Part shown: positions 6,424-62,586 of the stretch, one piece after another | How the letters are laid out: the number at the start of each line of letters is the position of its first letter | Position numbering within the stretch: the stretch's first letter is position 1 | Assembly: GCA_020161855.1 (NCBI GenBank) | Contig: JAIUNJ010000007.1 | Location: 62,001-126,000 of the forward strand | Direction: 5' to 3' | Length of the DNA: 64,000 nt | Source: Pseudomonadota bacterium | GTDB lineage: Bacteria > Pseudomonadota > Alphaproteobacteria > Rhizobiales > Aestuariivirgaceae | The notes under the pieces: model-generated | Databases searched by the model: none | What the model was told of the DNA's origin: nothing | The model's input: only the letters and a program-made list of their open reading frames with translations | Position numbers and translations under genes: made by a program

Positions 6424-6476
6424 TGAATTTAGTGCTTGACAGGCGCGCGGTGTTTCACTAGTTTTGTGGACAATCC
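6424..6476 (+). repeat. 53-bp promoter repeat, copy 1
   Basis: This block recurs as the reverse complement at 62534-62586 with one mismatch (T at 6462 here, A on the corresponding strand of the other copy). Similarity stops abruptly at both ends, and the flanking genes are unrelated. It holds a promoter-like arrangement, described in the next entry. Confidence 0.9.
6436..6464 (+). promoter_or_regulatory. Predicted sigma-70 type promoter, copy 1
   Basis: A perfect -35 hexamer TTGACA (6436-6441), a 17-bp spacer and a -10-like TAGTTT (6459-6464). The expected start of transcription is about 6471-6473. It points away from hflX and against mazG, so it is not placed to drive a protein gene; the structured region that follows is its likely product. 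Confidence 0.65.
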
Positions 6477-6560
6477 CGCATTGGGTCTCCACTCCCGCCA
6501 GCAATAGTCCTGCAAGCCCACGAGGACGACGTGGCGGAAAACCGGAGACTCGTAACGGAT
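6472..6560 (+). ncRNA. Candidate structured small RNA
   Basis: Downstream of the TTGACA promoter the sequence folds into a long rod by hand inspection. ATCC/GGAT (6473-6476 with 6557-6560) closes it. GGGTCTCC pairs with GGAGACTC (6483-6490 with 6544-6551, one G-T). CCGCC pairs with GGCGG (6495-6499 with 6533-6537). GTCCT pairs with AGGAC (6507-6511 with 6523-6527), capped by an 11-base loop. The predicted first base coincides with the base of the rod. Two small hairpins follow (6562-6576 and 6575-6592), but no T-run terminator was seen, so the 3' end is uncertain and may run antisense into the end of mazG. It matches no RNA family I can recognise. Confidence 0.55.
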
Positions 6561-6609
6561 CGCAAAGCGCCTTTGCCGGGACCGTATCCGGCGAGATCAG
6601 GCCGGAATG

Positions 6610-7419
6610 CTAAAGGCCTTTCGCCTTGGCCTCGTCCCAAAGGGCATCCATACCGGCAAGGCCGGAGGCTTCCGGCGACGAACCCGCAGCCGCCAGCCTG
6701 TCCTCGATGTAGCCGAAGCGGCGCTCAAACTTGGCATTGGCACCGCGCAGGGCGTCTTCCGGGTCAACACCATAGTGGCGGGCCAGATTGGCCACCACAA
6801 ATAGCAGGTCTCCGAGTTCCTCGGCGCGCTTGTCCGGCGGGGCGTCGCGGAGCTCGCCGATCTCTTCGCTGATCTTGTCATAGACGTGAGTGGTATCGGG
6901 CCAGTCAAAGCCGACCTTGGCGGCCTTGGCCTGAAGCTTGAGGGCGCGCGTCAGGGCGGGCAGGTTGAGCGGCACGGTGGCGAGCAGGGATGTCGTTTCT
7001 TTGCCAAGCTGCTTGCGCTCGGCGGCCTTGTTTGCCTCCCAGAAGCCCTTGGCAACACCAGCAGAGCGTGCCTGCGCGTCGCCGAAGACATGCGGATGCC
7101 GCCGGATCATCTTGGTGACGACGGCCTCGACCACGTCATCGAAGGTGAAACTGCCTTCCTCGGCCGCCATCTGCGCGTGGTAGACGGGTTGCAGGAGCAG
7201 GTCACCCAGCTCTTCGCAGAGGTCTTCACGGGAGCCACGCGCGATCGCGTCGGCGACTTCATAGGCCTCCTCGATGGTGTAGGGCGCGATCGTCTCGAAA
7301 CTCTGCTCCAGATCCCAGGGGCAGCCGGTGACTGGACGGCGCAGGGCAGCCATGATGGCGCGCAACGTTTCGATGGACCGCGGGTCCATCCGAGTGGGAT
7401 CAGGTGGCGTGGATGACAT
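6610..7419 (-). CDS. mazG: Nucleoside triphosphate pyrophosphohydrolase MazG
   Basis: Hydrolyses (d)NTPs to NMP and pyrophosphate, a house-cleaning enzyme. The 269-residue protein has two MazG repeats. The first carries the metal-binding motif EEAYEVADAI with EELGDLLLQ; the second carries EEIGELRD and EELGDLLFVVANL. Length is close to that of the E. coli protein (263). The start at 7419 leaves a slightly longer N terminus; Met 11 (7389) is an alternative. It lies antisense to the candidate RNA at 6472 and is followed upstream by a LysE-type exporter on the same strand. Confidence 0.95.
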   Translation of the reverse strand: MSSTPPDPTRMDPRSIETLRAIMAALRRPVTGCPWDLEQSFETIAPYTIEEAYEVADAIARGSREDLCEELGDLLLQPVYHAQMAAEEGSFTFDDVVEAVVTKMIRRHPHVFGDAQARSAGVAKGFWEANKAAERKQLGKETTSLLATVPLNLPALTRALKLQAKAAKVGFDWPDTTHVYDKISEEIGELRDAPPDKRAEELGDLLFVVANLARHYGVDPEDALRGANAKFERRFGYIEDRLAAAGSSPEASGLAGMDALWDEAKAKGL

Positions 7420-7437
7420 GCAGGAAGTCCTCGTATT

Positions 7438-8070
7438 CTACCTTCGCGCCTCAGTGGCGATGCGGAGCGCCATGCCGGCGAGAACGGTTCCCATGATCCA
7501 ACGCTGCGCCACGGCCCAGGCCGGGTGGCGCGCGAGGAACACGGAGATCGAGCCGGCCGAGAACACGATCATCGTGTTGACGGAGATGCTGACGCAGATC
7601 TGCAAGAAGCCGAGGGCCAGAAGCTGCAACAGCACGCTGCCTGCCGCCGGGTCGATGAACTGTGGCAACAGCGAAAGGTACATCGCAGCAATCTTGGGAT
7701 TGAGCAGGTTTGTGACGAAGCCCATCAGAAAGAGCTTGCGCGGGCTGTCCACAGGAAGATTGCGCACGTGGAAAGGCGAGCGGCCGCCCGGGCGCACGGC
7801 CTGCCAGGCGAGCCAGAGAAGATAGAGGGCTCCGCCGATCCGGATGGCGTCATAGGCATAAGGGATTGCGAAGACGATGGCCGTGAGGCCAAAGGCGGCA
7901 CAGAGCATGTAGACGACAAAGCCGAGCGCCACACCGCCGAGCGAGATCATGCCCGCAGTGCGCCCCTGACACACGGAACGCGAGACGAGATAGATCATGT
8001 TTGGACCAGGCGTCAGCACCATGGCAAGGGCAACAAGTGCAAAGGCAAAGAGACTCGCTGTGGTGGGCAT
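7438..8070 (-). CDS. LysE/RhtB family amino-acid exporter
   Basis: Inner-membrane exporter of amino acids or related metabolites; the exact substrate cannot be read from sequence. With the start at 8070 (MPTTASLFAF) the 210-residue protein matches the family length and contains the signature LTPGPNMIYLVSRSV near residue 20, with about six hydrophobic segments. The frame is open 28 codons further upstream to 8154, but that extension is not family-like. The dif-like site lies upstream of it, between this gene and pccA. Confidence 0.88.
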   Translation of the reverse strand: MPTTASLFAFALVALAMVLTPGPNMIYLVSRSVCQGRTAGMISLGGVALGFVVYMLCAAFGLTAIVFAIPYAYDAIRIGGALYLLWLAWQAVRPGGRSPFHVRNLPVDSPRKLFLMGFVTNLLNPKIAAMYLSLLPQFIDPAAGSVLLQLLALGFLQICVSISVNTMIVFSAGSISVFLARHPAWAVAQRWIMGTVLAGMALRIATEARR

Positions 8071-8182
8071 CTGTGTTCCTAAGCACAACTTGGATGACGC
8101 CCCAACAAGCAAGAGGGAAATCCAAGCCGTCTGATAGCGACAGGATACCTGCATTATTATCTTATAATAGGAGTATGATTCT

Positions 8183-8210
8183 TATTCGCATAATATATAT
8201 TATGGAATAT
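8183..8210 (+). other. dif: dif-like chromosome dimer resolution site (XerC/XerD)
   Basis: An 11-base left arm TATTCGCATAA (8183-8193), a 6-base centre TATATA (8194-8199) and an 11-base right arm TTATGGAATAT (8200-8210). The layout is that of the 28-bp dif site. Compared with the E. coli site, the left arm shares the CGCATAA core and the right arm the TTATG core. It is the only such sequence noticed in the window, lies in an intergenic region, and is a marked A/T island. The strand of GGGCAGGG octamers switches at this point, which supports it being the terminus. Confidence 0.75.
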
Positions 8211-8277
8211 TTTTATATCACCTGATCAAGTGTGTACCCTTGGGGAAAGTCAGCCCCCGTCAGTGGTTTAGCAGCAC

Positions 8278-10248
8278 TCAGGCGAATTCCATGATCACAG
8301 CATCGACGTTCAGGCTGTCGCCCTTCTTGGCGTTGACCTTCTTCACGGTCGCGTCGCGTTCGGCGCGCAGGATGTTTTCCATCTTCATGGCTTCGACGAT
8401 GGCCAGCGCCTCACCAGCCTTGACCTCCTGGCCCTCCGTCACGGCAATCGCCACGACGAGGCCTGGCATCGGACACAGGAGCTTCTTCGAGGTATCTGCG
8501 GGCTTCTTCTCGGGCATCAGCCGCACCAGTTCGGCTTCCCGCGGCGTATAGACATTGGCCGCCACGCTGATGCCGCGATAGCCAAGGCGGTAGCCATTGA
8601 GCACGCGCCGCACCTGGACGGCCAGCGTCTCACCGCCAACCTCCACGGTCGCCAGCGGCTCGCCGGGGCGCCACTGGATGCCGGTTGAACGCGCCTCGAG
8701 CTCCGGGGTGATTTCGATGACATGCCAGTCCGTGCCCAGCCTGACTTCGCGGCGGCGAGAGAACTTCACATCGCGGCCATTGAGCTGACCGCTGATCTTG
8801 CGCTTGCGGCTGTTCTCGACGTGATCGAGCATGACAGCCACCTCGGCAAGCCTCCCGGCGTTAACCATATCCAGGGCAGCGCCCTTGAAGCCACCCTCGA
8901 ATTCCTCGGCGATGAAACCGGTGGAAAGCTCTCCGGATTGCCAGCGGGCATTCTCCATGATGGCCGCGACAAACGGAATGTTGTGTTGAATGCCGTCGAT
9001 GACGAAGCGATCCAGGGCCGTGCTCATGGCCTTGATGGCTTCAAGGCGGCTAGGCGCATGTGTGCAAAGCTTGGCGATCATCGGGTCGTACCAGATGGAA
9101 ATCTCGCCACCCTCATAGACACCCGTGTCGTTGCGGACGGTGATGCCCTGCTCCACTTTCTCCTCCGGAGGGCGATACTGCACGAGACGCCCGGTGGAGG
9201 GCAGGAAGTTGCGATAGGGATCTTCGGCATAGACGCGGGATTCAACTGCCCAGCCGGTGAGTTTCACGTCCTTCTGTGCGAGCGCAAGCTTTTCTCCGGC
9301 GGCCACGCGGATCATCTGTTCGACAAGGTCGACGCCGGTGATGAGTTCCGTTACCGGATGCTCCACCTGCAGACGCGTGTTCATCTCGAGGAAGAAGAAG
9401 CTGCGGTCCTGGCCCGCCACGAATTCAACCGTGCCGGCGCTGTCGTATTCCACGGCCTTGGCCAGTGCGACGGCCTGCTCACCCATGGCCTTCCGTGTCT
9501 TCGCGTCGAGCAACGGTGACGGCGCTTCCTCGATAACCTTCTGGTTCCGGCGCTGAATGGAGCACTCACGCTCGCCGAGATAGATCACGTTGCCGTGCTT
9601 GTCGCCGAGTACCTGGATTTCGATGTGGCGGGGATTGGTGATGAATTTCTCGACGAACACCCGGTCATCACCGAACGAGGATTTCGCTTCCGACTTGGCG
9701 CGGGCAAAGCCATCGCGCACGTCGGCGTCGGAGTGGGCGATGCGCATGCCCTTGCCACCGCCACCGGCGGAGGCCTTGATCATTACGGGGTAGCCGATGT
9801 CTTTCGCGATGCGGACGGCCTCGTCCTCGCTTTCGATGATGCCCATGTAGCCAGGCACCGTTGAAACACCGGCTGCTGCCGCGGCCTTCTTGGATTCGAT
9901 CTTGTCGCCCATGGCATCAATGGCATGGGGATTGGGGCCGACGAACACGATCCCGGCTTCGGCAAGCGCCTTGGGAAAAGCGGAGCGCTCGGACAGGAAA
10001 CCGTAGCCCGGATGCACGGCCTCGGCTCCGGTTGCCTTGCAAGCGGCGATGATCTTCTCGATGACGAGATAGGATTGCGCCGCAGCGGCCGGCCCGATGT
10101 GAATGCGCTCATCGGCCATCTCGGTGTGCAGGGCCCGCGCGTCGGCGTCCGAATAGACGGCGACCGTCGCAATGCCCATCTTTCGGGCTGTCTTGATGAC
10201 CCGGCAAGCGATTTCGCCGCGGTTCGCAATAAGGATCTTCTTGAACAC
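8278..10248 (-). CDS. pccA: Propionyl-CoA carboxylase alpha subunit (biotin carboxylase plus biotin carrier)
   Basis: Carboxylates biotin with ATP and bicarbonate and carries it to the beta subunit to form methylmalonyl-CoA. The 656-residue protein has a biotin carboxylase domain (FKKILIANRGEIACRV at the N terminus, ATP-grasp with GGGGKGMR, HPGYGFLSER), a linker domain and a C-terminal biotinyl domain with the AMKMEN motif, its lysine near residue 622. The GTG at 10248 gives the typical family start; a further GTG at 10281 would add 11 residues. The partner beta subunit is at 15764-17296 on the same strand, separated by unrelated genes. The acyl-CoA substrate (propionyl versus another) is inferred from overall similarity. 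Confidence 0.92.
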   Translation of the reverse strand: MFKKILIANRGEIACRVIKTARKMGIATVAVYSDADARALHTEMADERIHIGPAAAAQSYLVIEKIIAACKATGAEAVHPGYGFLSERSAFPKALAEAGIVFVGPNPHAIDAMGDKIESKKAAAAAGVSTVPGYMGIIESEDEAVRIAKDIGYPVMIKASAGGGGKGMRIAHSDADVRDGFARAKSEAKSSFGDDRVFVEKFITNPRHIEIQVLGDKHGNVIYLGERECSIQRRNQKVIEEAPSPLLDAKTRKAMGEQAVALAKAVEYDSAGTVEFVAGQDRSFFFLEMNTRLQVEHPVTELITGVDLVEQMIRVAAGEKLALAQKDVKLTGWAVESRVYAEDPYRNFLPSTGRLVQYRPPEEKVEQGITVRNDTGVYEGGEISIWYDPMIAKLCTHAPSRLEAIKAMSTALDRFVIDGIQHNIPFVAAIMENARWQSGELSTGFIAEEFEGGFKGAALDMVNAGRLAEVAVMLDHVENSRKRKISGQLNGRDVKFSRRREVRLGTDWHVIEITPELEARSTGIQWRPGEPLATVEVGGETLAVQVRRVLNGYRLGYRGISVAANVYTPREAELVRLMPEKKPADTSKKLLCPMPGLVVAIAVTEGQEVKAGEALAIVEAMKMENILRAERDATVKKVNAKKGDSLNVDAVIMEFA

Positions 10249-10326
10249 TGCCCTGCCCGGTTCTGATGCTGTTTCAGGCACTTCTAGCCATTGGCAGACC
10301 CGGCGGCAATGAGACCAAAGCCAAGC

Positions 10327-11517
10327 TCAGTTGGGGCCCAGCAGGGCCCGCGCGGCGGGCGGCAACTCGCCATAATCCCTCTCGGCCATAAACTGGGCCA
10401 GGGCTTTGAGAACCGGCACGCGCTCCAGGTCATCGAAGTCACAGGTTTCCACCGGCTTGCCTGTCTTGCAGACCTGTGGCCCGAAGTCGCTTTTGCGGTC
10501 GGCATTCTCGGTGACCACCTGCCAGGCTTCGTCGCCCTGCCCGAGGCGCATCTTGGCTGCGAGCCACCCTGCCAGGAAGCCATTAGCGCGCCAGACCTGC
10601 GGGTCCAGCTTGGTTGAAAACTCCATGCGGGCGAGATCGCGCTTCAACTCGCTGCGGAAGGCAGGATCATTCGAGACATCCTGAAGCTTGCCGCCACGCA
10701 GTTGCGACACCCGAACCGGCGCAAAGGACCCGGCGTAGGAATCGAAGGCGTAGAGAAAGCTGTTGTCGACGGACATGAACTCCAGCACGCCATCTCCATC
10801 GAGATCCTTGTAGGCGTAGCCTCCGCCATCGAGCACATCAGCTTCGACCAGTGTCCAGGCCTCCTGGCCCTGCGGCTTCGTCGCCACCCAGGTTTGCGTG
10901 CAGCAGTGAGCGCCGCCGGTGAAGCGGGTAAAAACAAGCTGCGGATCGCTTGCCTGGGGATCCAATCGCAGCACGGCGGCTTCCGAGCCCCACTGGCTGT
11001 ATTCATCGTCCGTATGAAAGGAGAAGACGGCCTTGCCGTCCTTTGTGCCCTCCGCCGAGGTGGCGCCGGGTGCATCCTGTGTGCCGGCCATCGACACAAC
11101 GAAGTTCAGGGGACCGGCACTGAAGCGGGCGGGCTTGCCGATCTCATATTCCGTCATCGCCTGAAAGGCATCGCGCGGCTCATCCCAGACCGTCTCAAGA
11201 TAGTTCTCGCCACGCGACAGCCGCGCATCGCGCGGCACCTCGCCGATGTTCGGATTGGCCTTGAGCACCTGCTCGACAGAAGCCCCCGAATACGGGCCCA
11301 GCACGACGGCGAACCAACCGCTTTTCGATGACACGACACGCCACGGCTCAGTGCCATAGGCGCGGCCAATGCCGATGGCGGTATCGAGATCCTTGCTGGA
11401 TGCGACGGCAAGCCAGCGCTTCTCGCCTGCAAGCGATAGTGAAGCAGCTTGAGATTGATCGACAAAGATAAGAGTCAAGACAGAGAATGCAAACGCGGTG
11501 AAGGCTCTGTGAATCAT
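10327..11517 (-). CDS. Secreted protein of unknown function with SPOR-like N-terminal part
   Basis: The function is not recognised. The 396-residue product starts with a signal peptide (MIHRAFTAFAFSVLTLIFVD, cleavage likely after SQA). Residues about 35-90 (WLAVASSKDLDTAIGIGR, then GWFAVVLGPYSG) resemble a SPOR-type peptidoglycan-binding fold. The middle has a paired cysteine HCCTQTW and an EF-hand or VCBS-like stretch DLDGDGVLEF, and the C-terminal part has two more cysteines (VCKTGKPVETCDFDD). It is probably periplasmic or envelope-bound. ATG at 11517 is preferred over a GTG at 11529. It is divergent from the TadG-like gene. Confidence 0.8.
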   Translation of the reverse strand: MIHRAFTAFAFSVLTLIFVDQSQAASLSLAGEKRWLAVASSKDLDTAIGIGRAYGTEPWRVVSSKSGWFAVVLGPYSGASVEQVLKANPNIGEVPRDARLSRGENYLETVWDEPRDAFQAMTEYEIGKPARFSAGPLNFVVSMAGTQDAPGATSAEGTKDGKAVFSFHTDDEYSQWGSEAAVLRLDPQASDPQLVFTRFTGGAHCCTQTWVATKPQGQEAWTLVEADVLDGGGYAYKDLDGDGVLEFMSVDNSFLYAFDSYAGSFAPVRVSQLRGGKLQDVSNDPAFRSELKRDLARMEFSTKLDPQVWRANGFLAGWLAAKMRLGQGDEAWQVVTENADRKSDFGPQVCKTGKPVETCDFDDLERVPVLKALAQFMAERDYGELPPAARALLGPN

Positions 11518-11696
11518 GACATCACGCACCAGCCATCCAGCACCAACTCACGCTAGAGAAATTCAACGCCAGGGCGAGAGAACAACTGTTCATGCGCATC
11601 TCACGAGAGAATCCATAGGGCGGACAATAGGTTGGCTTTAGTCAAATTTACAATGGCGGACACTACAAGACGAGCCGGTTCAAAGAGGATTTCCAC

Positions 11697-12905
11697 ATGG
11701 CTCGCCCGCTTCTCTCCCGCCTGTTTGCCAACGGCGACGGCAATGTCGCCATCATCGCCGGGCTCTCCGCGATCCCGCTTGTCGCCGCGGCGGGCGTTGC
11801 CATTGATACGGTGCGGGCCGAGAACCTGCGGACCTCGCTGGCAGCGGCGCTTGATGGTGCAGTTCTTGCCGGCGCCGTCGCCAGCACCGACAACATCGGA
11901 CAATCCGCCCTCTTCTTCGATGCAAATTTCGCCAACGGCGATGCGACCAACATTCACCGCAGCTTCAAGAAGTCCGCCAACGTGAAAGTGGAAGGCAGCG
12001 CTTCCGCAGAACTTGAACCGGCACTCCTCACCGCCCTCGGCCTTGGCCCCGTGACCGTCGCCGTCAATGCAACGGCCGAAACATCGCAGAGTGCTGTCAC
12101 AAGCGATCCCGCGCTCTGCATCCTTGCGCTCTCAGGTTCGACCTCGCAGGCTTTCCTCGCCAATAGCGGTGCCAATGTGAGCGCCACCGGCTGCGAGATC
12201 CACGTCAAGAGCACGGTCAATCCCGCCGCCATCTTCAACGCTGGCACGACGATCAACTCGGCCAAGCTCTGCCTGCAGGGCACGAAGATCATCGATAACG
12301 GCGGCGTTCACCCCAATCTGCAGACAGGCTGCAAAACGCTCTCCGACCCTTACGCAGGAAAGGTGGTTGCGCCCGACAGCTCCACCTGCAACTTCAACAA
12401 CCTCAACTACTCGGGAAAGACGACCCTGAAGCCGGGTGTCTACTGCGGCTGGCACAACTTCAATTCAGGGACAGACGTGACGCTGCAGCCCGGCACCTAT
12501 GTGATCAAGAATGGCGGCTGGAACGTCAACGGCGGCACATGGACGGGAACCGGTGTCACCTTCTACTATGCGGACACGTCGAAAATTCAGTTCAACAGCG
12601 CCGTCAAGGCAACGCTGAGCGCGCCAAAATCCGGCACATATGCAGGTTTCCTTTTTGCCGAGAAGAGCGGGCTGTCCAACAGCCAGTTCATTCTCGACGA
12701 CAACAAGGGCTTCGACATGGAAGGCATCATCTACCTGCCGAGCCGAGACGTGGTTTTCAACTCTTCGACGACGGTGAACTCGCGCAAGATGACAGCCGTG
12801 GTGAACACGGTGATCTTCAACGGCGTCAAATGGAACATCACCGCCTATGACGGCAGCGGCAGCTCCGGCAGTGCGGCGGCCGTGACGGCCCGGCTCATCA
12901 AGTAG
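11697..12905 (+). CDS. Orphan TadE/TadG-like pilus-type protein with beta-rich C-terminal domain
   Basis: The first 60 residues ([29 protein letters not shown]) form the N-terminal membrane segment typical of TadG/TadE pseudopilin-like proteins. The remaining 340 residues are rich in Gly, Thr, Asn and Ser and suggest a parallel beta-helix (for example [19 protein letters not shown]). Cysteines recur in the middle (CILAL, GCEIHV, LCLQG, GCKT, CNF, YCGW). AGAGGA lies 8-10 bp before the ATG. No other tad/cpa pilus genes are nearby, so it is an orphan; a role in the envelope or cell surface is inferred. Confidence 0.82.
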
Positions 12906-12951
12906 CGGCACTGTTTGCCCTTTTCAGGCCGCTCGGCTAAAGGCCGCGGCC

Positions 12952-14277
12952 ATGACCATCCATGTCCCGAAAGTGGGCCTCGTCCAGCTTGGCTGCCCCA
13001 AGAACCTGGTCGACTCCGAGCGTATCCTGACGCAGCTCCGTGCAGAGGGCTATGTCATTGCGCCCGGCTATGACGATGCTGACGTGGTCATCGTCAATAC
13101 CTGCGGCTTCCTCGACAGTGCCAAGGCCGAAAGCCTATCTGCCATCGGCGAGGCCATGGAAGAGAACGGGCGGGTCATCGTGACGGGCTGCTATGGCGTC
13201 GAGGCCGACACCATCCGCAAGACACACCCTTCCGTGCTGGCGATCACAGGCCCGCATCAATACGAGGAAGTGGTGAAGGCCGTGCACGAGGCAGTGCCGC
13301 CGGCTCATGACCCGAAGATGGATCTCGTGCCGCCCCAGGGCCTCCATCTCACGCCGAAGCACTATGCCTATCTGAAGATTTCCGAAGGCTGCAACAACCG
13401 CTGTACCTTCTGCATCATCCCCTCGATCCGCGGCGATCTCGTGTCGCGGCCGGCTGCCGCGCTGATCTATGAAGCCGAACGGCTGGTGAAGGCGGGGGTC
13501 AAGGAACTGCTGGTGATCTCACAGGACACCAGTGCCTATGGCGTCGATATCAAGTACGCCACATCGAAGTTCCGGGGCCGCGAGGTGCGGGCCAAGTTCT
13601 ATGACCTGGCCAAGGAACTGGGCGATCTCGGCGCCTGGGTGCGGATGCATTATGTCTATCCCTACCCGCATGTGGACGATGTGATCCCGCTGATGGCCGA
13701 GGGCAAAATCCTGCCCTATCTCGACATCCCATTCCAGCATGCCGCACCCCAGGTGCTGAAGGCGATGCGCCGCCCGGCAAACCAGGAGAAGGTGCTGCAG
13801 CGGCTCGCCAAATGGCGCGCGATCTGCCCGGACATCGCCATCCGCTCAACCTTCATTGTGGGTTTCCCCGGTGAGACAGACGAGGACTTCGAATACCTCC
13901 TCTCCTGGATGAAGGAAGCGCGCCTCGATCGCGTTGGCTGCTTCAAGTACGAACCTGTTTCGGGTGCGACGGCCAATGACCTTGGCCTGCCGCAGGTTCC
14001 CGATGCGGTGAAGGATGAGCGCTACGCCCGCTTCATGGAAACCCAGCAGGAGATTTCTTCGGCGATCCTCACTTCCAAGGAAGGCCGTATCATCGAAGTG
14101 CTGGTTGACGAGATTGATGCCGAGAACGGCGAAGCCGTTGCCCGCTCAGTCTGGGATGCCCCGGAGATCGACGGCAACGTCTTCATCCCCGGCGCCACGC
14201 ATCTCAAGCCCGGCGATCTGGTGAAGGTGAAGGTCATCGAAGCCGAAGAGTACGATCTCGTCGCCGAACTGCTCTAG
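12952..14277 (+). CDS. rimO: Ribosomal protein S12 methylthiotransferase RimO
   Basis: Radical-SAM enzyme that adds a methylthio group to the conserved Asp of ribosomal protein S12. The 441-residue protein has the N-terminal MTTase domain with cysteines in LGCPKN, TCGF and GCYG, the radical-SAM cluster motif CNNRCTFC (Cys147, 151, 154) and a C-terminal TRAM domain. Its length is standard. Its stop overlaps the stop of the convergent membrane-protein gene by four bases. Confidence 0.97.
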
Positions 14278-15059: not shown

Positions 15060-15129
15060 GAGGCTCCGTCGCGCACCGTTTAGAGGCTTCGCCCCGGAAA
15101 AGGCAATGCCACGGCAAGCTGTCCGGCTA

Positions 15130-18939: not shown

Positions 18940-18988
18940 GGAAGCAGCCTCCGCAGCCTGAATAGCTGCTTGGCCCGGCAGGAAGAAA

Positions 18989-54468: not shown

Positions 54469-54938
54469 ACGCTGAATTCCTCGGGCCTGCACCCACGGGC
54501 CAGTGTGTTCAAGACGCCGTTGATGAAGCGCGGCTCATCGCCGCCATCAAAGAAGGCATCGGCCACGCCGACATATTCCGAGATCGCGACCCGCGACGGA
54601 ACCTTGTCCATGAAGAAGATTTCAAAGGCTGCCGCGCGAAGGATCGCCCGAACGGTTGAATCGAGGCGGTGCAACGGCCAGTCCTTGTCGAGAATCTTGT
54701 CCAGCGAAACGTCAAGAAGGGCCTGCTCACGGACAGTCCCCTCCACGACAGTGCGCAGATGCGCGTAGTCGGCCTCGCCACATTCACCATTATCGAAATT
54801 GTCGCCTGCGGCCCGGGACGAGAACTGCGCCAGCGTCTCCCCTACATCGGAGGCGGCAATATCCATCTGGTATAAGGCCTGGACGGCGCCCAGCCGGGCG
54901 GCGGAGCGGGCAACGGGCGGTTTGCGGGGGGTGTTCAT
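54465..54938 (-). CDS. nusB: Transcription antitermination factor NusB
   Basis: RNA-binding protein for rRNA antitermination. The 157-residue all-helical protein has ARLGAVQALYQMDIA near the N terminus, LDKILDKDWPLHRLDSTVRAILRAAAFEI and the C-terminal AISEYVGVADAFFDGGDEPRFINGVLNTLA, all typical. The start MNTPRKPPVAR at 54938 is preferred over 54953. Confidence 0.95.
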   Translation of the reverse strand: MNTPRKPPVARSAARLGAVQALYQMDIAASDVGETLAQFSSRAAGDNFDNGECGEADYAHLRTVVEGTVREQALLDVSLDKILDKDWPLHRLDSTVRAILRAAAFEIFFMDKVPSRVAISEYVGVADAFFDGGDEPRFINGVLNTLARGCRPEEFSV

Positions 54939-55080
54939 GTCTGGCGGTTTCAATCAGCTTTGCGCCACCGCTTAGCCCGCCTCCGCCGCCAGCACAACGC
55001 CGGCCCGGCATGCCACCCCAGACTTGCGCACAGGGCGGCTCCCCCCTATTTCCGGCCATCCTCAGGGGAGAGACAGGCGG

Positions 55081-55998
55081 ATGACCCTACCTTCAGCAAA
55101 GGCGAAGAGCCCGGCCACCGGCGCGATCTTCATGGTTTCCGCCGGGATTGCCTTTGCGGTCATCAACGTCATCACCCAGACGGTCACAGGTGACCCTGCC
55201 TATGGCGGGCTTGGCTTCAAGCCGACCTCCGATGCCTTCTGGCAGTATTTCATCGCCCTCCTGATCTCCCTGCCCTTCATCCTGAAAAGTGGCCCTGGCG
55301 CCATGCGCACGGCCTTCCCCGGGCAGCATGTGATCCGCGTCATCTTCTCGGCCCTGGGCGTGCAGGCTTTCGTCTTCGGCCTCGCCCATGGTGTGCCCAT
55401 CTGGCAGGTCATCGCCCTTGTCATGACCTCGCCCTTCTTCATTCTTCTGGGCGCAAAATTCTCTCTTGGTGAGCATGTCGGGCTGGACCGCTGGTTCGCA
55501 GCGAGCCTCGGCTTTGCCGGTGCCCTGATCGTGCTGCAGCCCTGGTCGTCTGGCTTTACGGTCTGGTCGCTGGCGCCCGTTGCCGCCGCCATCCTGTGGG
55601 GCGCTGCCTCACTCATGACCAAGCGCCTCACCGCCTCCGAGAGTCCCGAGACCATCACCATGTGGCTGCTGCTCCTGCTCTCGCCCATCAATCTCGGGCT
55701 TTCGCTGGCCGCGGGCTTCGAGTGGCCAAGCGGCAGGATCCTTCACCTCATCCTGCTGGGCGGCGTCATCCAGTTCGTGGCACAGTGGTGCCTCACCAAG
55801 GCCTATGACAAGGCCGATGCCTCTTTCCTCCAGCCCTTCGACGATCTGCGCCTGCCCTTCAATGTCATCGCGGGCTATGTGGCCTTCCGCTACCTGCCCG
55901 AAGGCAATCTGTGGATCGGCATTGCCCTCATCATGGCGGCCTCGGCCTTCCTGATGTGGCGGGAACATGTGAAGCGCCGCACAGCCACGGCGGCCTGA
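55081..55998 (+). CDS. EamA/DMT family transporter
   Basis: A 305-residue drug/metabolite exporter with ten membrane helices in two EamA repeats (FMVSAGIAFAVINVITQTV at the start, and LGGVIQFVAQWCLTKAYDKADASFLQPFDDLRLPFN in the second repeat). It is related to but clearly different from the one at 24967. Start MTLPSAKAKS at 55081 follows an AGGCGG. The substrate is unknown. It is convergent with the DUF1906 gene. Confidence 0.88.
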   Translation: MTLPSAKAKSPATGAIFMVSAGIAFAVINVITQTVTGDPAYGGLGFKPTSDAFWQYFIALLISLPFILKSGPGAMRTAFPGQHVIRVIFSALGVQAFVFGLAHGVPIWQVIALVMTSPFFILLGAKFSLGEHVGLDRWFAASLGFAGALIVLQPWSSGFTVWSLAPVAAAILWGAASLMTKRLTASESPETITMWLLLLLSPINLGLSLAAGFEWPSGRILHLILLGGVIQFVAQWCLTKAYDKADASFLQPFDDLRLPFNVIAGYVAFRYLPEGNLWIGIALIMAASAFLMWREHVKRRTATAA

Positions 55999-56002
55999 AC
56001 GC

Positions 56003-57007
56003 TCACCAGCTCGGCTTGCACTTCTCGGGCAGGCCCGCGGCCGGCGTCACCTTGCCCTTCTTCGACCACTGGCCGAAATCCTTGCGCTGCACGCGGTTGA
56101 AATCGAAGCGCGCCGTTTCCTTGCCGTTGAACTGCCAGTTCTTGCAGAAGGTCGTATGCTGCTGCACCAGGGTCCACTTGCCGCTGGCGAGGAATTCCTT
56201 GGACCTTGGCCAGCCGGTCGACATGGCCAGCCAGCAGAATTCCACCAGCTTTCTGTTCAGCAGGTGCTCGCACACAAGCCCGCTGCCATAGCCGCCGATG
56301 CGATAGCGCCCGTCCGCCTTCAGCACGCGGTTCAACTCGCTGAAATAGTGATCGACAAAGGGCAGCATGTCGCCGTGCGTGATGGCTTCCGGCGGCTTGC
56401 CAAAGGCCAGCCGGTGATAGATCCGGAAGCGCTCATAGAACTTGATGTGCTTGCGGAAGCTGGGGTCAGCAGCGAGCAGCCGCTTCTTGCGCTCAGGCTG
56501 CACCACCTGCCCCTTGTTGACGCGCCATTCAAAGACGGAGTCCTTGATCGTCTGGTCGACGCCATCGACGGCAAAATAGATGGCCGAGCCCGCAGGCTGC
56601 CCGTTGGCCCCGGCGAGTTTCAGGGCCTCGCGCGCATCGCGCGCCCCGCGAGACTTGTCGAGGAAGGTCTCCGGATCGGAGTTCTCGTGCTGGAAGATCG
56701 TCACGATGCTGAGGCCCGCCGCCAACAGTGCATCGGTTTCCTTTGGAAACAGCGACTTGCAGGTCGTGTCCGGCCCGACCCAGTCATAGTAGCGGGCAAT
56801 GGTTTTGATGCCGATAGCCTTGAAGGCTTCAACGCCCGTTTTCCCGCTCTTCGTCGTGATCGTCATCACCGGTTGCGAAAGATCAACGAGCGGATATTGC
56901 GGATGGGTGTTGCAGGATGGCGCCGCCGCGGCAGGCAATACCCCCAGCAGAAGAGCCACGAGCCCCGCCCCGGCGCATCTCAGGCCAGAACCAATCACGC
57001 ACACCAT
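56003..57007 (-). CDS. Secreted DUF1906 glycoside-hydrolase-like protein
   Basis: A 334-residue protein with a signal peptide (ending near LPAAAAPSC) and a TIM-barrel-like domain similar to DUF1906/Rv2525c, which resembles peptidoglycan-degrading hydrolases. Blocks such as IGIKTIARYYDWVG, LSIVTIFQHENSDPETF and SAIYFAVDGVDQ fit. It starts in an ATGA overlap with the nrdR stop. A cell-wall role is inferred. Confidence 0.85.
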   Translation of the reverse strand: MVCVIGSGLRCAGAGLVALLLGVLPAAAAPSCNTHPQYPLVDLSQPVMTITTKSGKTGVEAFKAIGIKTIARYYDWVGPDTTCKSLFPKETDALLAAGLSIVTIFQHENSDPETFLDKSRGARDAREALKLAGANGQPAGSAIYFAVDGVDQTIKDSVFEWRVNKGQVVQPERKKRLLAADPSFRKHIKFYERFRIYHRLAFGKPPEAITHGDMLPFVDHYFSELNRVLKADGRYRIGGYGSGLVCEHLLNRKLVEFCWLAMSTGWPRSKEFLASGKWTLVQQHTTFCKNWQFNGKETARFDFNRVQRKDFGQWSKKGKVTPAAGLPEKCKPSW

Positions 57008-57480
57008 CAGGTGTCGTTCTCGCTGCTGTCGTCATTGGCCAGTTCGCCAATGATCTCCTCGAAATCCTTCGCCTCGCGGAAATTGCGGTACACCGAGGCA
57101 AAGCGCACATAGGCCACGTCATCGAGGTTCTTGAGCCCCTCCATGACGAGCTCGCCGATCTGCTCCGACTTGATCTCGTTTTCGCCCAGGCTTTCCAATT
57201 GCCGCACGATCCCGGAAACCATGCGCTCGATACGCTCGGCATCGACAGGCCGCTTGCGCAGGGCCACCTGCACGGAACGTGCGAGCTTGTCGCGGTCGAA
57301 GGGCGTGCGGCGGCCGGACCGCTTCACCACCATCAACTCGCGCAACTGGATGCGTTCAAAGGTCGTGAAGCGTCCGCCGCAATCCGGGCAGGCCCGGCGG
57401 CGGCGGATGGCGGAATTGTCTTCCGTGGCGCGGCTGTCCTTCACCTGGGTTTCGGCATTGCCGCAGAACGGACAGCGCAT
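57007..57480 (-). CDS. nrdR: Transcriptional repressor NrdR
   Basis: Represses ribonucleotide reductase genes in response to ATP/dATP. The 157-residue protein has the N-terminal zinc ribbon (Cys3, Cys6, Cys31, Cys34) and the ATP-cone domain ([31 protein letters not shown]). It lies 14 bp after glyA in the same direction, the usual glyA-nrdR pairing. Confidence 0.97.
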
Positions 57481-57494
57481 CGTCTGGAAAGCTC

Positions 57495-58826
57495 CTAGCT
57501 GTAGATCGGGAACCTCTTGGTCAGCGCCATCACCTTGCGCTTCACCGCCGATTCCACCTTGCCGTTGCCATCTTCGCCATTCTTGGCAAGCCCGTCCAGA
57601 ACCTCGGTGATCAACCGGCCCACTTCGCGGAATTCGGCTTCGCCGAAGCCACGCGTCGTTCCGGCCGGTGTGCCAAGGCGGATGCCGCTCGTCACCATCG
57701 GCTTCTCCGGGTCGAAGGGAATGCCGTTCTTGTTGCAGGTGATATAGGCGCGGCCCAGTGACTGTTCTGCGGCCTTGCCAGTCAGGCCCTTCTTGCGCAG
57801 GTCGACCAGCATCAGGTGCGTGTCGGTGCCGCCCGTGGTGATGTCGCAGCCGCCTGCAATCATGGCATCCGAGAGCGCCTTGGCGTTCTTCACAACCTGC
57901 CCTGCATACTTCTTGAAGGCGGGCCTCAGAGCTTCGCCAAAGGCCACGGCCTTGGCTGCAATCACATGTTCCAGCGGTCCACCGATGATGCCCGGGAAAA
58001 CCGCGGAATTGATCTTCTTGCCCAGATCCTCGTCGCGCGAGAGGATCATACCGCCGCGCGGTCCGCGCAGCGTCTTGTGCGTCGTCGTCGTCACCACATG
58101 GGCATGTTCCAGCGGGCTCGGATGCACACCACCCGCCACGAGGCCGGCAAAATGCGCCATGTCGACAAACAGATAGGCGCCCACGCTGTCGGCGATCTCG
58201 CGGAAGCGCTTGAAGTCGATGATCCGCGGATAGGCCGAACCACCGGCGATGATAAGCTTCGGCCGCACCTCGAGGGCCTGGCGGGCAACATCGTCATAGT
58301 CGATCTGCTGGTTGTCCTCGCGCACCTTGTAGGAAGCAACCTTGAACCACTTGCCGGATTGGTTGACCGGCGAACCATGTGTCAGGTGGCCACCACAGGC
58401 GAGGTCGAGACCCATGAAGGTGTCGCCCGGCTGCAGCAGCGCAAAGAACACTGCCTGATTGGCCGTGGCCCCGGAATGGGGCTGCACATTGGCATAGTTG
58501 GCGCCGAACAGCTGCTTCGCCCTGTCGATCGCCAGTTGTTCTGAAACGTCCACATGCTGGCAGCCCCCATAGTAGCGGCGGCCCGGATAGCCCTCGGCAT
58601 ACTTGTTCGTCATCACCGAACCCTGCGCCTCAAGCACGGCGCGCGAGACGATGTTCTCGGAGGCGATCAGTTCGATCTCGTGCTGCTGCCGCCCCAGCTC
58701 GGCGGCGATTGCCTTGGCGATCTTCGGGTCGGTCTTGGCCAGCTTGTCCTTGAAGAAGCCGGGGTAAAGCGGGGCTTTCTTGGTGGCAGCTTTCTTGACG
58801 GTCTTCTTGGCGGGCTTGCGGGCCAT
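57495..58826 (-). CDS. glyA: Serine hydroxymethyltransferase
   Basis: PLP enzyme interconverting serine and glycine with one-carbon transfer to tetrahydrofolate. The 443-residue protein has [39 protein letters not shown] and the PLP lysine in [16 protein letters not shown]. An unusual Lys/Ala-rich N-terminal extension ([16 protein letters not shown]) precedes the conserved start. GGAGA lies before the ATG. The next gene upstream is hemA, which uses glycine. Confidence 0.97.
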
Positions 58827-58930
58827 GGCAGGTGTCTCCGGGTGGCAGATGGGGCCGCTCTATACAGGCTCCGAAAGCGCCGTCCATGCCGAAAGCGACA
58901 TGACGGACAAGGCCCGCCCTGTCCGCCTGC

Positions 58931-60151
58931 TCAGGCCGCCCGCTTCAGCGCGAGGCGCTCCCAGCATTCATCGAGGGCGGCGGCCAGCCGGGCGATTTCA
59001 AGCTCGCCATGAAGCGGCCCAGGCGTCAGCCGGATGCGCTCCGTGCCCTTGGCGACGGTCGGATAGTTGATCGGCTGCACATAGATCGCATGCTTGTCCA
59101 GAAGCCGGTCCGTCAACGCCTTGCACTGCACCGGATCGCCGATCATCACCGGCACGATATGGGTCGGCGTATCGAGTGCCGGCAGGCCGCGCCCGCGCAG
59201 CGCCGCATAAAGCTTCCGGGCATGGCTCTGCTGCAGGGCCCGCTCCTTGTCCGACAGCTTGAGATGCCGCACCGAGGCCAGAGCCCCGGCGGCGATCACC
59301 GGCGAGATCGACGTCGTGAAAATGAACCCGGGCGCATTGCTGCGGATGGCATCGATGACATTGGCCTGCCCAGCCAGATAGCCACCCATGAGCCCGAAGG
59401 CCTTGGCCAGCGTACCCTCGATCACGTCGATCCGCCCGAGCAGCCCGTCCCGTTCGGCGACACCGCCGCCACGGGGACCATACATGCCCACGGCATGAAC
59501 CTCGTCCAGATAGGTCAGGGCCCCGAACTCGCGCGCCAGATCGCAGATGGCCGCCATCGGCGAGATGTCGCCATCCATGGAGTAGATCGACTCGAAGGCA
59601 ATGATCTTCGGCCGGGCCCGCTCGATGCGGCTGAGCTTGGCCCGCAGGTCGGCGAGGTCATTGTGCGCGAAAACCATCTTCTCGCAGCGCCCCTGGCGGA
59701 TGCCGTCAATCATCGAGGCGTGGTTCTTGGCGTCCGAGAGGATCACACAGCCCGGAAGAAGCTGCGCCAGGGTGGAGAGCCCGGCGGCGTTGGCCATGTA
59801 GCCGGAGTTGAACAGAAGTGCCGCCTCCTTGCCGTGAAGGTCGGCAAGCTCGCGTTCGAGCGCCACATGATAGCGTGTCGTGCCAGAGATATTGCGCGTT
59901 CCGCCGGAACCGGCGCCGACCTCGTCGATTGCTTCGTGCATGGCCTGCAGCACCTCGGGATGCTGGCCCATGCCGAGATAGTCGTTGGAACACCACACCG
60001 CGACATCGCGCGGGCCATCTGGCCCGTGCCATGTTGCCCGTGGAAACTGCCCGCACTTGCGGCTCAGTTCGATGAACTGCCGATACCGGCCCTCGCGGTG
60101 AAGCGCTTCAAGGGCCCCGTCAAAGGCCGCTGCATAGTCAAAACGTGTCAT
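58931..60151 (-). CDS. hemA: 5-aminolevulinate synthase
   Basis: Condenses glycine and succinyl-CoA to start haem synthesis by the Shemin route of alphaproteobacteria. The 406-residue protein has [45 protein letters not shown] and the PLP lysine in [17 protein letters not shown] at 60151 follows an in-frame TTG at 60157. A GGACA/TGTCC inverted repeat lies between hemA and glyA but lacks a T run. Confidence 0.97.
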
Positions 60152-60167
60152 GCACAACCGTTTAGCC

Positions 60168-60201
60168 GGTCAAGTGCACCCGCGCACTTGACCTGGCTCA
60201 A
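60168..60201. promoter_or_regulatory. Long palindrome and FNR-like box before hemA
   Basis: GGTCAAGTGC (60168-60177) and GCACTTGACC (60184-60193) form a perfect 10-bp inverted repeat. Overlapping it, TTGAC-N4-CTCAA (60188-60201) resembles an FNR/FixK site with one change per half. Without a T run the stem is not a normal terminator for the L,D-transpeptidase gene, so a regulatory role for hemA is possible. The box is only 37 bp from the hemA start, which is close for an activator. Confidence 0.35.
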
Positions 60202-60206
60202 TCGTG

Positions 60207-62219
60207 TCAGTTGGCCGCAGTCTCAGGCTTTGCCTTGTCGGCGGCTGGCTTTTTGACTGCCTCAACCGGCTTCTTGGCAGGAGCAGCATCAGCGGTCTTG
60301 CAGCCATCAGGCAGCTTGCCATTCTTGTCGGGTTTGCAGGCAGCAGGCTTCTTTGTGGCCGACTTCTTGTCGTCCACCTTCTTCTTGTCGGCCGTGGCGT
60401 TGTCGGTCGGTTTCTTCTTGGCTGCCGCAGCATCCTTGCTGTCGGTGGCGGCCACCTTCTTGGCATCGGCCTTGCCGGTCTTTGCAACCTTCTTCTTGTC
60501 GGTGGCCTTCTTGCCCTTCTTTGCGGCCTGTTCCTTGCGGTACTTGCCCCAGTCAAAAAGGCCCGGAACGCCGTCGTCGTTCTTCTTGATCTTGGCCGGC
60601 TTCGTTGTCGACTTACCCAGCAGCGTCTTCTTCGGCGGAGTGCTGTCCTCGTCGTCCGCTCCAGCAGAAGGCTCGTCAGCGGACTTCCAGCTCGAGGACA
60701 TCACAGGGCCGTCGTCGCTGTTCTTGGCAAGCCGCAGCATTAGCTTGCGCGTAATGTCGCTCGCCTTGCCCCTGCTCATGCTGGTGCCGCCCTGGTTGGA
60801 ACCGCCAAGGAATGAACCGCCGGAAGTCTTGCGGTTGCCGAACAGGAAGAAGCCGGCCGAGTTACCGTCTTCGATCGACTGCACGAGGCGTGGCAGCGGC
60901 TTCAGCACGAAGCGGCTGCCATCCGGAGCAACTTCGCCCAGCGGCATCGGCTGGCCGACAGTGAAGCCCGAGTTGTCGAGGTCATAGATGTCGTAGCGGA
61001 AGGCAACCGTGTTGCCGATCGGCCAGGCAGTCAGATAGACCTGCCGCAGTTGTGGCGGTGCCGTCAGATTGACATCGAGGCGCTCCAGCGTTTCAGCCAG
61101 AGCCGAAATCTGCGTTTCGCCGATGCCGTCCTGGCCATTCACAATCCACTTCACCAGACCCGGCATATCCTGCACACGCACGCAGCCCGAGCTGTAGAAA
61201 CGGGTCTTGGACTCGAACAGCGGCTTCTCCGGCGTGTCGTGGAGATAGACACCAAACGGGCTCTTGAAGGTCACCTTGGCCGTGGCCATGGCGTTGCCCG
61301 GCCCCGGCTCCTGACGGAAATGGTAGTCGTCAGGAATGGCGCGGCGCCAGTTCACCGAGCGGGGATCGATTTCCGGGCCACCGTAGCCCTTGAAAACCTT
61401 CATGTTCATGTCGTCGAGGACACGCGTGCCGGTGCGCAGCTTCGGGAAAATGTCAGCTTCGACAATCGAAACCGGCGCATTCCAGTACGGGTTGAAGTTG
61501 ATTGCCTCCAGCGGCGTCATCACCACCGGCGAAGGCCGCGAGGGGCGGCCGACAATGGCATTGTGGTGCGAGTAGACGCGGCCATTCTCAACGGTTTCGA
61601 TCTGCTGCGCCGGAATGTTGACGATCACGTAGCGCGGCCCGAGGTCCTTCTCATAGACCTCCAGCCGGTTGATGTTCGCCAGAATGGTGCGCAGGCGCAC
61701 ATCCGCCGGTACGTTGAGATAAGCCAGCGTCACCTGGTCAACACGCCCGGTGACGGCCAGCCCCATATTGCGCTGGAAGCGGCGCACACCGTCTTCAGTC
61801 GCGCTGGTGAACCGCGAAGCAAATTCGCTCTGCGTGGCCTCAACGCGGACATAGCCGTCGAGGTAGAGGCGCTGATTGAGGATCACCACGCCTTTGCCCG
61901 TTGAGCCCTTCTTGTAGTTGCCGCCTGGAACCTTGGGGAACCCACCCTGGGCCACGATGTTACGATAGCGGTCGGCGATGGCGCGCATCCGTTCGGCACT
62001 GTCGGGTGCCAGCATCGGCGACAGGTTGTTGTCGAAAACATACTCGGTCTTTGTTTCGACCTTTGAGGCCGCCGGCAGGTTCTCGGCGGGGCCACCTGCG
62101 GCACCGGCCTCGCGGGCCACAATTGGAAGTGCCAGGGCGGCAATCAGGGCCACTACGAACAGACGCATATGCGCCAGGTGGAAGATATTGAAATGGTTCA
62201 TATTTGTCAGTGTGCGCAT
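60207..62219 (-). CDS. ldtP: L,D-transpeptidase, target of LdtR
   Basis: Periplasmic peptidoglycan cross-linking enzyme of the YcbB type. After a signal segment (MRLFVVALIAALALPIVA) the roughly 670-residue protein has a peptidoglycan-binding motif (DGVRRFQRNMGLAVTGRVDQVTLAYLN), then the YkuD catalytic domain with the Cys motif SSGCVRVQD, and a Lys/Ala-rich low-complexity tail of about 130 residues. Start sites at 62219, 62201 and 62168 are possible; a GTG at 62255 is less likely. The neighbour ldtR and the family pairing known from related bacteria support the name. A leader of about 320 bases separates it from the repeated promoter. Confidence 0.88.
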   Translation of the reverse strand: MRTLTNMNHFNIFHLAHMRLFVVALIAALALPIVAREAGAAGGPAENLPAASKVETKTEYVFDNNLSPMLAPDSAERMRAIADRYRNIVAQGGFPKVPGGNYKKGSTGKGVVILNQRLYLDGYVRVEATQSEFASRFTSATEDGVRRFQRNMGLAVTGRVDQVTLAYLNVPADVRLRTILANINRLEVYEKDLGPRYVIVNIPAQQIETVENGRVYSHHNAIVGRPSRPSPVVMTPLEAINFNPYWNAPVSIVEADIFPKLRTGTRVLDDMNMKVFKGYGGPEIDPRSVNWRRAIPDDYHFRQEPGPGNAMATAKVTFKSPFGVYLHDTPEKPLFESKTRFYSSGCVRVQDMPGLVKWIVNGQDGIGETQISALAETLERLDVNLTAPPQLRQVYLTAWPIGNTVAFRYDIYDLDNSGFTVGQPMPLGEVAPDGSRFVLKPLPRLVQSIEDGNSAGFFLFGNRKTSGGSFLGGSNQGGTSMSRGKASDITRKLMLRLAKNSDDGPVMSSSWKSADEPSAGADDEDSTPPKKTLLGKSTTKPAKIKKNDDGVPGLFDWGKYRKEQAAKKGKKATDKKKVAKTGKADAKKVAATDSKDAAAAKKKPTDNATADKKKVDDKKSATKKPAACKPDKNGKLPDGCKTADAAPAKKPVEAVKKPAADKAKPETAAN

Positions 62220-62334
62220 CTTCTCTACCAACTCGTCCTCACCCGCTCTGTCCACATAGCATCGCTGGCGAGGCCCGTCAAAACTGAGGCCATTTCAGGT
62301 GCAAATGAGGCAGATTCGAGATTCGCAGGATTAA

Positions 62335-62539
62335 ATTACGACAATCCGGCCACAATTGCCGGAAATCACTGATCTTTGCCGAGGCACTGAGACTTATTCG
62401 CCACAGCCACTGGCCCCCTTTGCCCAATGATTGGGCGAAGGCGCGACGCGTTGGCTGTTCAAATCTTTTTGAGGGAAATTGATGCCGGAGGCTCTCCTCC
62501 GGTGGAGATACGCTCTTGCAGGGGCGCAGTTCAGGATTG
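62335..62539 (-). ncRNA. Candidate leader or small RNA upstream of ldtP
   Basis: The 62220-62651 gap contains no convincing gene. Transcription from the repeated promoter would start near 62539 with ACAATCC (62533-62539), which is complementary to GGATTGT about 190 bases later (62341-62347). In between lie a CCGGAGG/CCTCCGG hairpin exposing GGAGG/CCTCC sequences (62484-62501) and a GCCCAAT/ATTGGGC hairpin (62422-62436). A TCCGGC/GCCGGA stem (62345-62363) near the 3' end is followed by a T-rich stretch. It may be an independent RNA of about 200 bases or the ldtP leader. Pairings were found by eye, so confidence is limited. Confidence 0.4.
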
Positions 62540-62586
62540 TCCACAAATCTAGTGAAACACCGCGCGCCTGTCAAGCACTAAATTCA
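62534..62586 (-). repeat. 53-bp promoter repeat, copy 2
   Basis: Reverse complement of 6424-6476 with a single mismatch. It lies directly downstream of the ldtR terminator and points toward ldtP. Sequence outside the block is not similar to copy 1. Confidence 0.9.
62546..62574 (-). promoter_or_regulatory. Predicted sigma-70 type promoter, copy 2
   Basis: On the minus strand, TTGACA (62569-62574), a 17-bp spacer and TAGATT (62546-62551). The one base that differs from copy 1 falls in the -10 element and brings it slightly nearer to consensus. Expected start about 62539. It may drive the candidate RNA and ldtP. Confidence 0.65.

Follow-up and report, generated by a model that had tools for sequence, protein, structure and literature searches.

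Dispersed homologues of a gene transfer agent promoter, many followed by a conserved hairpin, in an alphaproteobacterial genome

One question in the biology of gene transfer agents (GTAs) is how the cell keeps a lytic, self-sacrificing programme of DNA transfer in step with its other activities. Antitermination reportedly links GTA loci in Bartonella, to judge from the title of a study of BaGTA. Phage lambda has one late promoter per phage. The accessible parts of the literature describe activation of GTA clusters by GafA in Rhodobacter (PMC6363796, PMC9638019) and by a split form, GafY/GafZ, in Caulobacter (PMC11150451, PMC9632790), and gafA relatives are reported in 196 of 208 alphaproteobacterial genomes (PMC9765227, in part). 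The GTA promoter of Rhodobacter capsulatus is bound by GafA, an activator with DUF6456-annotated relatives, the C-terminal part of which binds around the -10 and -35 (PMC6363796, PMC9638019). In Caulobacter, GafZ is reported to be an antiterminator with one chromosomal target, and GafY has 18 further sites (PMC11150451, PMC9632790). A putative GafZ-binding element (ZBE), a near-perfect palindrome, lies between the -10 and -35 of the Caulobacter GTA promoter; it has been compared with the lambda Q site at pR', also an antiterminator site within a promoter with a terminator downstream, and the Q and GafZ proteins are unrelated (PMC11150451).

The promoter described here resembles Caulobacter crescentus PgtaT, as portrayed in the available part of that report (PMC11150451), in preceding a GTA cluster, in carrying between -35 and -10 a palindrome, imperfect in this genome, in sharing its genome with a GafZ-class gene and, in 11 of its copies, in having a terminator downstream. 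The two differ in the -35, TTGACA here versus AATCAT in PgtaT, and in number: Caulobacter GafZ has one target, whereas our genome holds 27 promoter copies, 21 of them with a hairpin. Dispersed copies go unmentioned in the accessible parts of the R. capsulatus reports (PMC6363796, PMC9638019), and our searches of open-licence PMC papers brought up no account of GTA promoters dispersed in this way; those for mobile promoters likewise gave nothing usable. REPIN/MITE repeats and mobile promoters share with our block the character of short, dispersed intergenic repeats, including a REP-like tail in 11 copies. Unlike them, the block is tied to the GTA promoter and to a covarying hairpin, and no termini were seen.

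The window, the whole 64,000-nt stretch that we analysed, belongs to a genome of 3,363,020 bases in 19 contigs (G000; other genomes of the genus are labelled G001 to G036, and loci carry L numbers). A sequence-only reading of the window had pointed to a block present in two inverted copies, and both are real. Positions 6424-6476 (+) and 62534-62586 (-) match at 52 of 53 bases, the sole mismatch falling in the -10 hexamer (TAGTTT in copy 1, TAGATT in copy 2). Both have TTGACA, at 6436-6441 and 62574-62569, and a 17-bp spacer; their flanks are unrelated, as had been said, save for a weak likeness of the leaders over about 12 bases, seen by eye. The features of the two sites are as follows.

4998..6380, plus strand: hflX, directly upstream of copy 1 (Pfam)
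6413..6427, plus strand: upstream dyad TTCCT-N5-ATGAA, a degenerate TTCCT-N5-AGGAA, possible activator site (by eye)
6424..6476, plus strand: block copy 1, GTA-type promoter core (BLAST, 27 genome copies)
6436..6441, plus strand: -35 TTGACA of copy 1; intact in 26 of 27 copies, TTGGCA in one
6442..6452, plus strand: putative GafZ-binding element (operator), between -35 and -10, placed like the Caulobacter ZBE in the available part of PMC11150451
6459..6464, plus strand: -10 TAGTTT of copy 1; TAGATT in 25 of 27 copies
6470..6489, plus strand: conserved leader, putative 5' end of the transcript, its start placed by the spacing from the -10
6495..6537, plus strand: motif 2 hairpin CCGCCA..GTCCT..AGGAC..TGGCGG (model match, covariation in relatives)
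6610..7419, minus strand: mazG, convergent, downstream of copy 1 (Pfam)
60207..62255, minus strand: L,D-transpeptidase (YkuD) gene, downstream of copy 2 (Pfam)
about 62250-62283: apparent native promoter of the L,D-transpeptidase gene (by eye)
62485..62502, minus strand: hairpin CCGGAGG-AGAG-CCTCCGG after copy 2 (by eye)
62534..62586, minus strand: block copy 2, GTA-type promoter core (BLAST)
62546..62551, minus strand: -10 TAGATT of copy 2
62569..62574, minus strand: -35 TTGACA of copy 2
62652..63176, minus strand: MarR-family regulator, upstream of copy 2 (Pfam)

Motif 2 was not found after copy 2. A specific link between the two window genes through the block finds no support here: copy 1 faces the 3' side of mazG, and some 290 bp separate copy 2 from the transpeptidase gene's own apparent promoter further downstream (by eye). 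Neither site is occupied in the relatives that we read. No block follows hflX in six relatives with the locus in the right direction (L047, L048, L055, L070, L072, L074), and hflX and mazG almost touch in G006 and G011. Nor is there a block within about 330 bp after the MarR-type gene in nine relatives (L077, L079, L081, L082, L084, L087, L089, L098, L105), seven of which have, by eye, a TTTGACG..-type sequence like that before the window transpeptidase gene. Since these relatives have the native-like promoter and lack the block, it seems that copy 2 was added where a native promoter already stood. A dyad TTCCT-N5-AGGAA also stands, by eye, before promoters in other families of Hyphomicrobiales, again upstream of the -35; it is a candidate site for GafY or another activator. 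A tRNA promoter reading was dropped, with no tRNA near the window copies or in the loci of 22 relatives, and parS-, attC- and CRISPR-like readings were dropped on inspection by eye.

The two window copies are a small part of the set. A BLAST search of G000 with window positions 6415-6485 returned 27 matches (E 3.5e-31 to 1.6e-15), bearing out the view that the identity is far above chance and enlarging, without overturning, the picture of a block that occurs twice. A sequence profile recovers the same 27 promoter copies, and in their ungapped 54-column alignment most columns are invariant in 27/27. The hexamers, TTGACA-17-TAGATT/TAGTTT, have the 16-18 bp spacing of sigma-70 promoters. Past the block, eleven copies (class A) have about 235 bp in common; these hold a hairpin-T5 terminator and another hairpin, motif 2, and end in the REP-like stretch GGTTCCAGC..GCTGGAA. 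Ten more (class B) share the promoter, the start of the leader and motif 2, with linkers that look dissimilar by eye. Motif 2 thus lies within 160 bases of the block in 21 of the 27 copies, and the other six have none in that range. In one of these six, L017 (G000:C7:368354-374416), motif 2 is found 1.1 kb beyond the block, past a Gfo/Idh/MocA oxidoreductase ORF (Pfam) that stands between them. Outside class A the hairpins have no clear T run by eye.

One copy identifies the block. L027, at 154.9 kb on contig C1, has the consensus base at all 41 core positions and lies directly upstream of the GTA cluster. Behind it we find Terminase_6N/6C, Phage_portal, Peptidase_S78 and Phage_capsid (HK97), and further back Tail_completion_gp17, DUF2460, a baseplate hub and GTA_TIM (Pfam, with NCBIfam in agreement). 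An HTH-like ORF of 200 aa, with no match in Pfam or NCBIfam, sits between L027 and TerL; we call it g1 because of its position and the known GTA layout. The other 26 copies are dispersed, none of them upstream of g1 and TerL. A self-regulated HTH gene was considered as a reading and dropped, since an overlapping terminase identified the ORF as GTA g1.

Related promoters stand before GTA-type genes elsewhere. Profile R2, built without structure from 47 sequences (out of 75 references, class-A copies left out), has a match in at least 43 of 397 genomes of the order. Thirty matching genomes lie outside the genus, none with more than two matches, and these order-wide figures are lower bounds because seven candidates were scored per genome and the model leans towards the genus. 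In 24 matching genomes, nine in the genus and 15 outside, we read one locus each, viewing ORFs up to 150 residues. An HTH-like g1-type ORF (..YE....v..IA...g......l..rA...GW..R) follows the promoter at six of the nine genus loci (all but L300, L301 and L302) and at eight of the 15 others (L303, L304, L308, L310, L311, L313, L315, L317). With L305, L306 and L307, which have a terminase P-loop ORF (GGRGAGKTR) and no clear HTH, related promoters precede GTA-type genes at 11 of the 15 loci in other Hyphomicrobiales. L314 and L319 show neither feature, and L309 and L312 are ambiguous; a terminase-type P-loop is visible at 7 of the 24 loci within the residues viewed. Among 20 additional loci in the genus, a g1-type ORF follows the promoter at nine, and the terminase comes after it where visible. 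From the cluster behind L027 and these related promoters we conclude that the block is a GTA promoter, a homology that is established at the level of sequence comparison.

The block would thus be the host GTA promoter: one copy stands at the GTA cluster, 26 others are scattered over the chromosome, and these dispersed copies probably form a set of GTA-type promoters, of the GafZ/antiterminator class, that make structured RNAs. In such a unit the dyad would come first, then a sigma-70-like promoter that holds a GafZ-type operator between its hexamers, then a conserved 5' leader, with an intrinsic terminator added in 11 copies and the conserved hairpin in 21 of 27. The earlier idea of a dedicated regulator has a concrete candidate, a GafZ/DUF6456-class gene encoded at C1:131125-131538 (Pfam 3.6e-42). 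DUF6456 turns up in 34 of the 37 genomes of the genus, among them G000, and in Caulobacter, which served as control. Of the 18 GTA promoters of the genus compared, 12 carry a 10-bp palindrome without mismatch in the interval from -35 to -10: ACCGTACGGT, ACCGCGCGGT, AGCGCGCGCT or AGCGTACGCT. These palindromes differ between species yet stay perfect, which indicates that both arms changed together (ACCG..CGGT, AGCG..CGCT). In G000 the operator is the imperfect palindrome AGGCGCGCGGTG, and only copy L033 has ACCGCGCGGT.

Co-regulation of the copies by GafZ is the best-supported candidate mechanism. On this view the dispersed units would be transcribed, bound by GafZ and antiterminated, and their RNAs may have a function. 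When GafY/GafZ-class proteins are made, GafZ would load on RNA polymerase at all operators together, so that the GTA operon and the dispersed units would be driven simultaneously; read-through of the unit terminators would yield structured RNAs and antiterminated transcripts running into neighbouring DNA. Several observations weigh against this reading: the imperfect operator of G000, the one target of Caulobacter GafZ (PMC11150451, PMC9632790), the copies in other species that lie nearer to another species' GTA promoter than to their own, the promoters kept by G020 and G017, which seem to lack most GTA structural genes, the six copies without motif 2 nearby, the unremarkable -10 region at sites shared between species, and the modest fold of the hairpin of window copy 1. 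This arrangement suggests that DNA-transfer particles and a small-RNA family are under one control. If the matches do answer to the GTA antiterminator, the single known site of Caulobacter would be extended to many chromosomal sites.

How closely do the copies follow the GTA promoter of their own species? We compared 43 bases across 18 species with a GTA promoter, using 26 copies from G000, 24 from G007, 19 from G024, 18 each from G003 and G020, six each from G028, G001 and G017, and one each from G022, G016, G023, G006, G012 and G036; these are fewer than the R2 counts for most species, and 4 of 24 G024 matches lie outside the set. The own GTA promoter is nearest for 26/26 copies in G000 (mean 41.1/43, versus 23.5 for the best other species) and for 19/19 in G024 (39.0 versus 31.1). 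In the sister species G003 and G020 it is nearest for 7/18 each (about 32 versus 33-34), in G028 for 4/6, in G001 for 1/6, in G017 for 3/6, in G016 and G023 for 1/1 each (both copies at most 2 kb from the GTA promoter), and in G012 and G036 for 0/1 each; no GTA promoter was identified among the G007 copies read. The tight match to the own species is thus confined to two genomes, G000 and G024. In the rest, members of a clade have the same operator type, and a clade-level match is all that is seen in the five other species for which at least six copies were compared.

Mean identity within species is 41.5 in G000, 38.8 in G007, 37.7 in G024 and 31.3-34.5 in G003, G020, G028, G001 and G017. Positions that vary in G003 and G020 are nearly fixed in G000, though the class-B linkers are dissimilar by eye. 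Homogenisation of the block alone, by gene conversion, or unusually strict selection would explain the near-fixed block. The sequence-only reading, which had offered duplication, gene conversion or strong selection, came close: the copies are GTA-promoter homologues, homogeneous within the genome. Strong selection acting on housekeeping promoters of various genes, alike and unrelated to the GTA, would account for the consensus -35 and the 17-bp spacing, but we find it barely credible given the identity with the GTA promoter, the near-fixation in G000 of spacer positions that vary in G003 and G020 (56/84), and the fact that about half of the downstream genes face the promoter.

The second conserved part of the unit is the hairpin. 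A model, R1, was built from 16 mostly-G000 sequences (alignment A1). In G000 it finds 22 places, of which 21 adjoin blocks and one is in L017, and it matches in 11 of 37 genus genomes (G007 24, G000 22, G003 16, G020 16, G024 8, G012 6, G015 6, G022 5, G036 4, G008 1, G009 1). In relatives, a related but different promoter precedes the hairpin at 25 of 26 loci, L232 being cut by a contig end, and also in 56 copies of G003, G007 and G020. R1 has no match in G001, G017 or G028, where several dispersed promoters are followed by REP-like hairpins, none with motif 2 (L301, L302, L392-L409).

Pairing was examined in a set of 67 hairpins from four species other than G000 (A3), which omits one identical G007 hairpin, the short G007 hairpin L257 and 5 of 18 G024 loci (C129, C150, C306, C286, C241). 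The G000 hairpins, which have a bulge in another register, were left out of A3 and are present in A1. In A3, 85.1% of cells are paired (helix 2 100%, outer helix 76.7%), and both sides have changed at 12 of 14 pairs, that is, in compensatory fashion. Covariation is 0.277 versus 0.170 in shuffles, and none of the 500 shuffles equals the alignment on any of the five measures, in a test whose shuffles ignore the kinship of the sequences. Slid structures score below the proposed hairpin. The same test on A1 gives weaker support: of 500 shuffles, 10, 17, 1, 164 and 3 reach the observed value on the respective measures. Folded alone, the hairpin of window copy 1 gives z -1.22, with 29 of 200 shuffles as good; a class-A unit, terminator included, gives -4.60, and two G007 units give -2.37 and -2.96.

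At the gathering threshold, Rfam returned only a tRNA from the window. Six loci (window copy 1 and five others) gave two chance-level matches and none at the unit, and a known RNA family was ruled out on this ground. The genus thus supplies a hairpin family without an Rfam match.

Sites shared between species show which parts are constrained. G003 and G020 have 14 sites in common, judged by upstream proteins 87-99% identical. Identity there is 208/224 for -35 plus operator, 159/180 for the leader and 606/672 for the hairpin, against 56/84 for the remainder of the spacer, 113/146 for the linker and 866/1540 downstream. The -39..-1 stretch as a whole has 477/560. In the upstream DNA, some of which is coding, the figure is 873/1120, and neither the discriminator (105/126) nor the -10 region (75/98) rises much, if at all, above linker and upstream DNA. 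Fisher tests give P = 4e-8 for operator versus spacer remainder and 7e-5 for hairpin versus linker, values that are rough, as the bases of a single copy do not vary independently. At these sites, then, conservation is higher in operator, leader and hairpin than in spacer, linker and downstream DNA.

This constraint bears on whether a passive MITE- or REP-like repeat captured the GTA promoter and spread, leaving copies that have no role and are identical because they are young. Many scattered copies were indeed found, and scattered copies that lack transcripts are what the sequence-only reading had named as the mark of an ordinary repeat; the roughly 235 bp with a REP-like end common to 11 copies, the lack of any site common to G000 and G007, and the empty window sites in six and nine relatives all fit. 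Yet ten copies share little past the promoter, leader start and hairpin, the 11 aligned class-A copies show by eye neither terminal inverted repeats nor target duplication, and the hairpin's compensatory changes and the constraint at the 14 shared sites speak for selection on operator, leader and hairpin in relatives. We regard a passive repeat as distinctly unlikely.

The genus includes species with 1 and with 35 promoter matches and lineages that keep the promoters, seemingly without most GTA structural genes. R2 matches in 34 of 37 genomes: 35 in G007, 29 in G000 (27 promoters and two partial), 24 in G024, 23 each in G003 and G020, then 15, 13, 13, 12, 11 and fewer, G017 having 13. A near-exact block was absent from 60 other genomes (BLAST, 62-base query), and a degenerate core pattern gave 0 hits in named genomes and 0 in viral contigs, in searches from which records of G000 itself were possibly excluded.

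GTA_TIM is detected in 22 of 37 genus genomes. Of the 15 without it we examined two, G020 and G017, reported as 100% complete. About 19 kb in each held, together, 37 minus-strand ORFs of at least 120 aa, nine of which were run against Pfam. The G020 locus (L411, G020:C37:205000-224600) yielded terminase, response regulator, histidine kinase, sub-threshold MTHFR and CcmE, and the G017 locus (L412, G017:C12:160000-179400) a g1-type ORF (no match), response regulator, kinase and CcmE; portal and capsid were absent among the nine. Most GTA structural genes thus seem to be gone from both genomes, and dispersed promoters (23 matches in G020, 13 in G017) and DUF6456 genes persist. This persistence may reflect an independent role, or a recent loss of the GTA; the sister species of G020, G003, retains GTA_TIM. 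A stronger form of our favoured reading is a genome-wide antitermination regulon, in which dozens of GTA late promoters, copied from the GTA and homogenised within the species, would fire together in cells that produce GTA, yield a new structured-RNA family and read-through transcripts along the chromosome, and have a role of their own because they are kept in such lineages. We put this forward tentatively, as a possibility with the balance somewhat against it.

Placement was scored for 116 sites in eight genomes with simple codon-usage gene calls, three sites falling inside a called ORF. The upstream neighbour has the same direction as the unit in 84 of 112 scored cases; the downstream neighbour does so in 53 of 101, which is unbiased. 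These counts indicate that a unit usually follows the end of a gene, and that driving the gene ahead does not govern where the units lie. An unbiased downstream direction would also be expected of a decoy array, in which the copies, as DNA, titrate GafY/GafZ and set the threshold for all-or-none lysis in few cells, with RNA as a by-product. The -35 plus operator is the best conserved part, as titration would have it, and copies in G000 and G024 match their own GTA promoter, but a conserved hairpin and leader would be superfluous, and we think a decoy array unlikely.

The dispersed units could instead be promoters of accessory GTA genes, comparable to the 18 further GafY sites in Caulobacter (PMC11150451, in its available part); the L017 copy, where an oxidoreductase ORF lies between block and hairpin, would suit this. 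Sites that differ between G000 and G007, the unbiased direction, and neighbours such as mazG, hflX and the transpeptidase gene (Pfam) and dcd- and tuf-like genes (by eye) make it improbable, and GTA-type promoters that make structured RNAs remain the reading that we prefer.

Sites turn over between species, partly as segments of about 235 bp. No site is common to G000 (27) and G007 (22 of 24 copies compared, many on short contigs; two with a variant sequence after the -35 were omitted here and from the placement counts). One G000 site, L022, may recur in G003 and G020, where the upstream protein is 70-71% identical over 76-80 aa. Another copy, L029 (G000:C12:1-3369), lies near a contig end between mfd- and tuf-like genes (by eye). 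A partial leader-hairpin match at G000:C13:115233-115309 (-), about 0.5 kb past a full copy, is perhaps a decayed unit, and in G007 two like-oriented units, C308:2314-2361 and 2973-3021, lie 0.66 kb apart.
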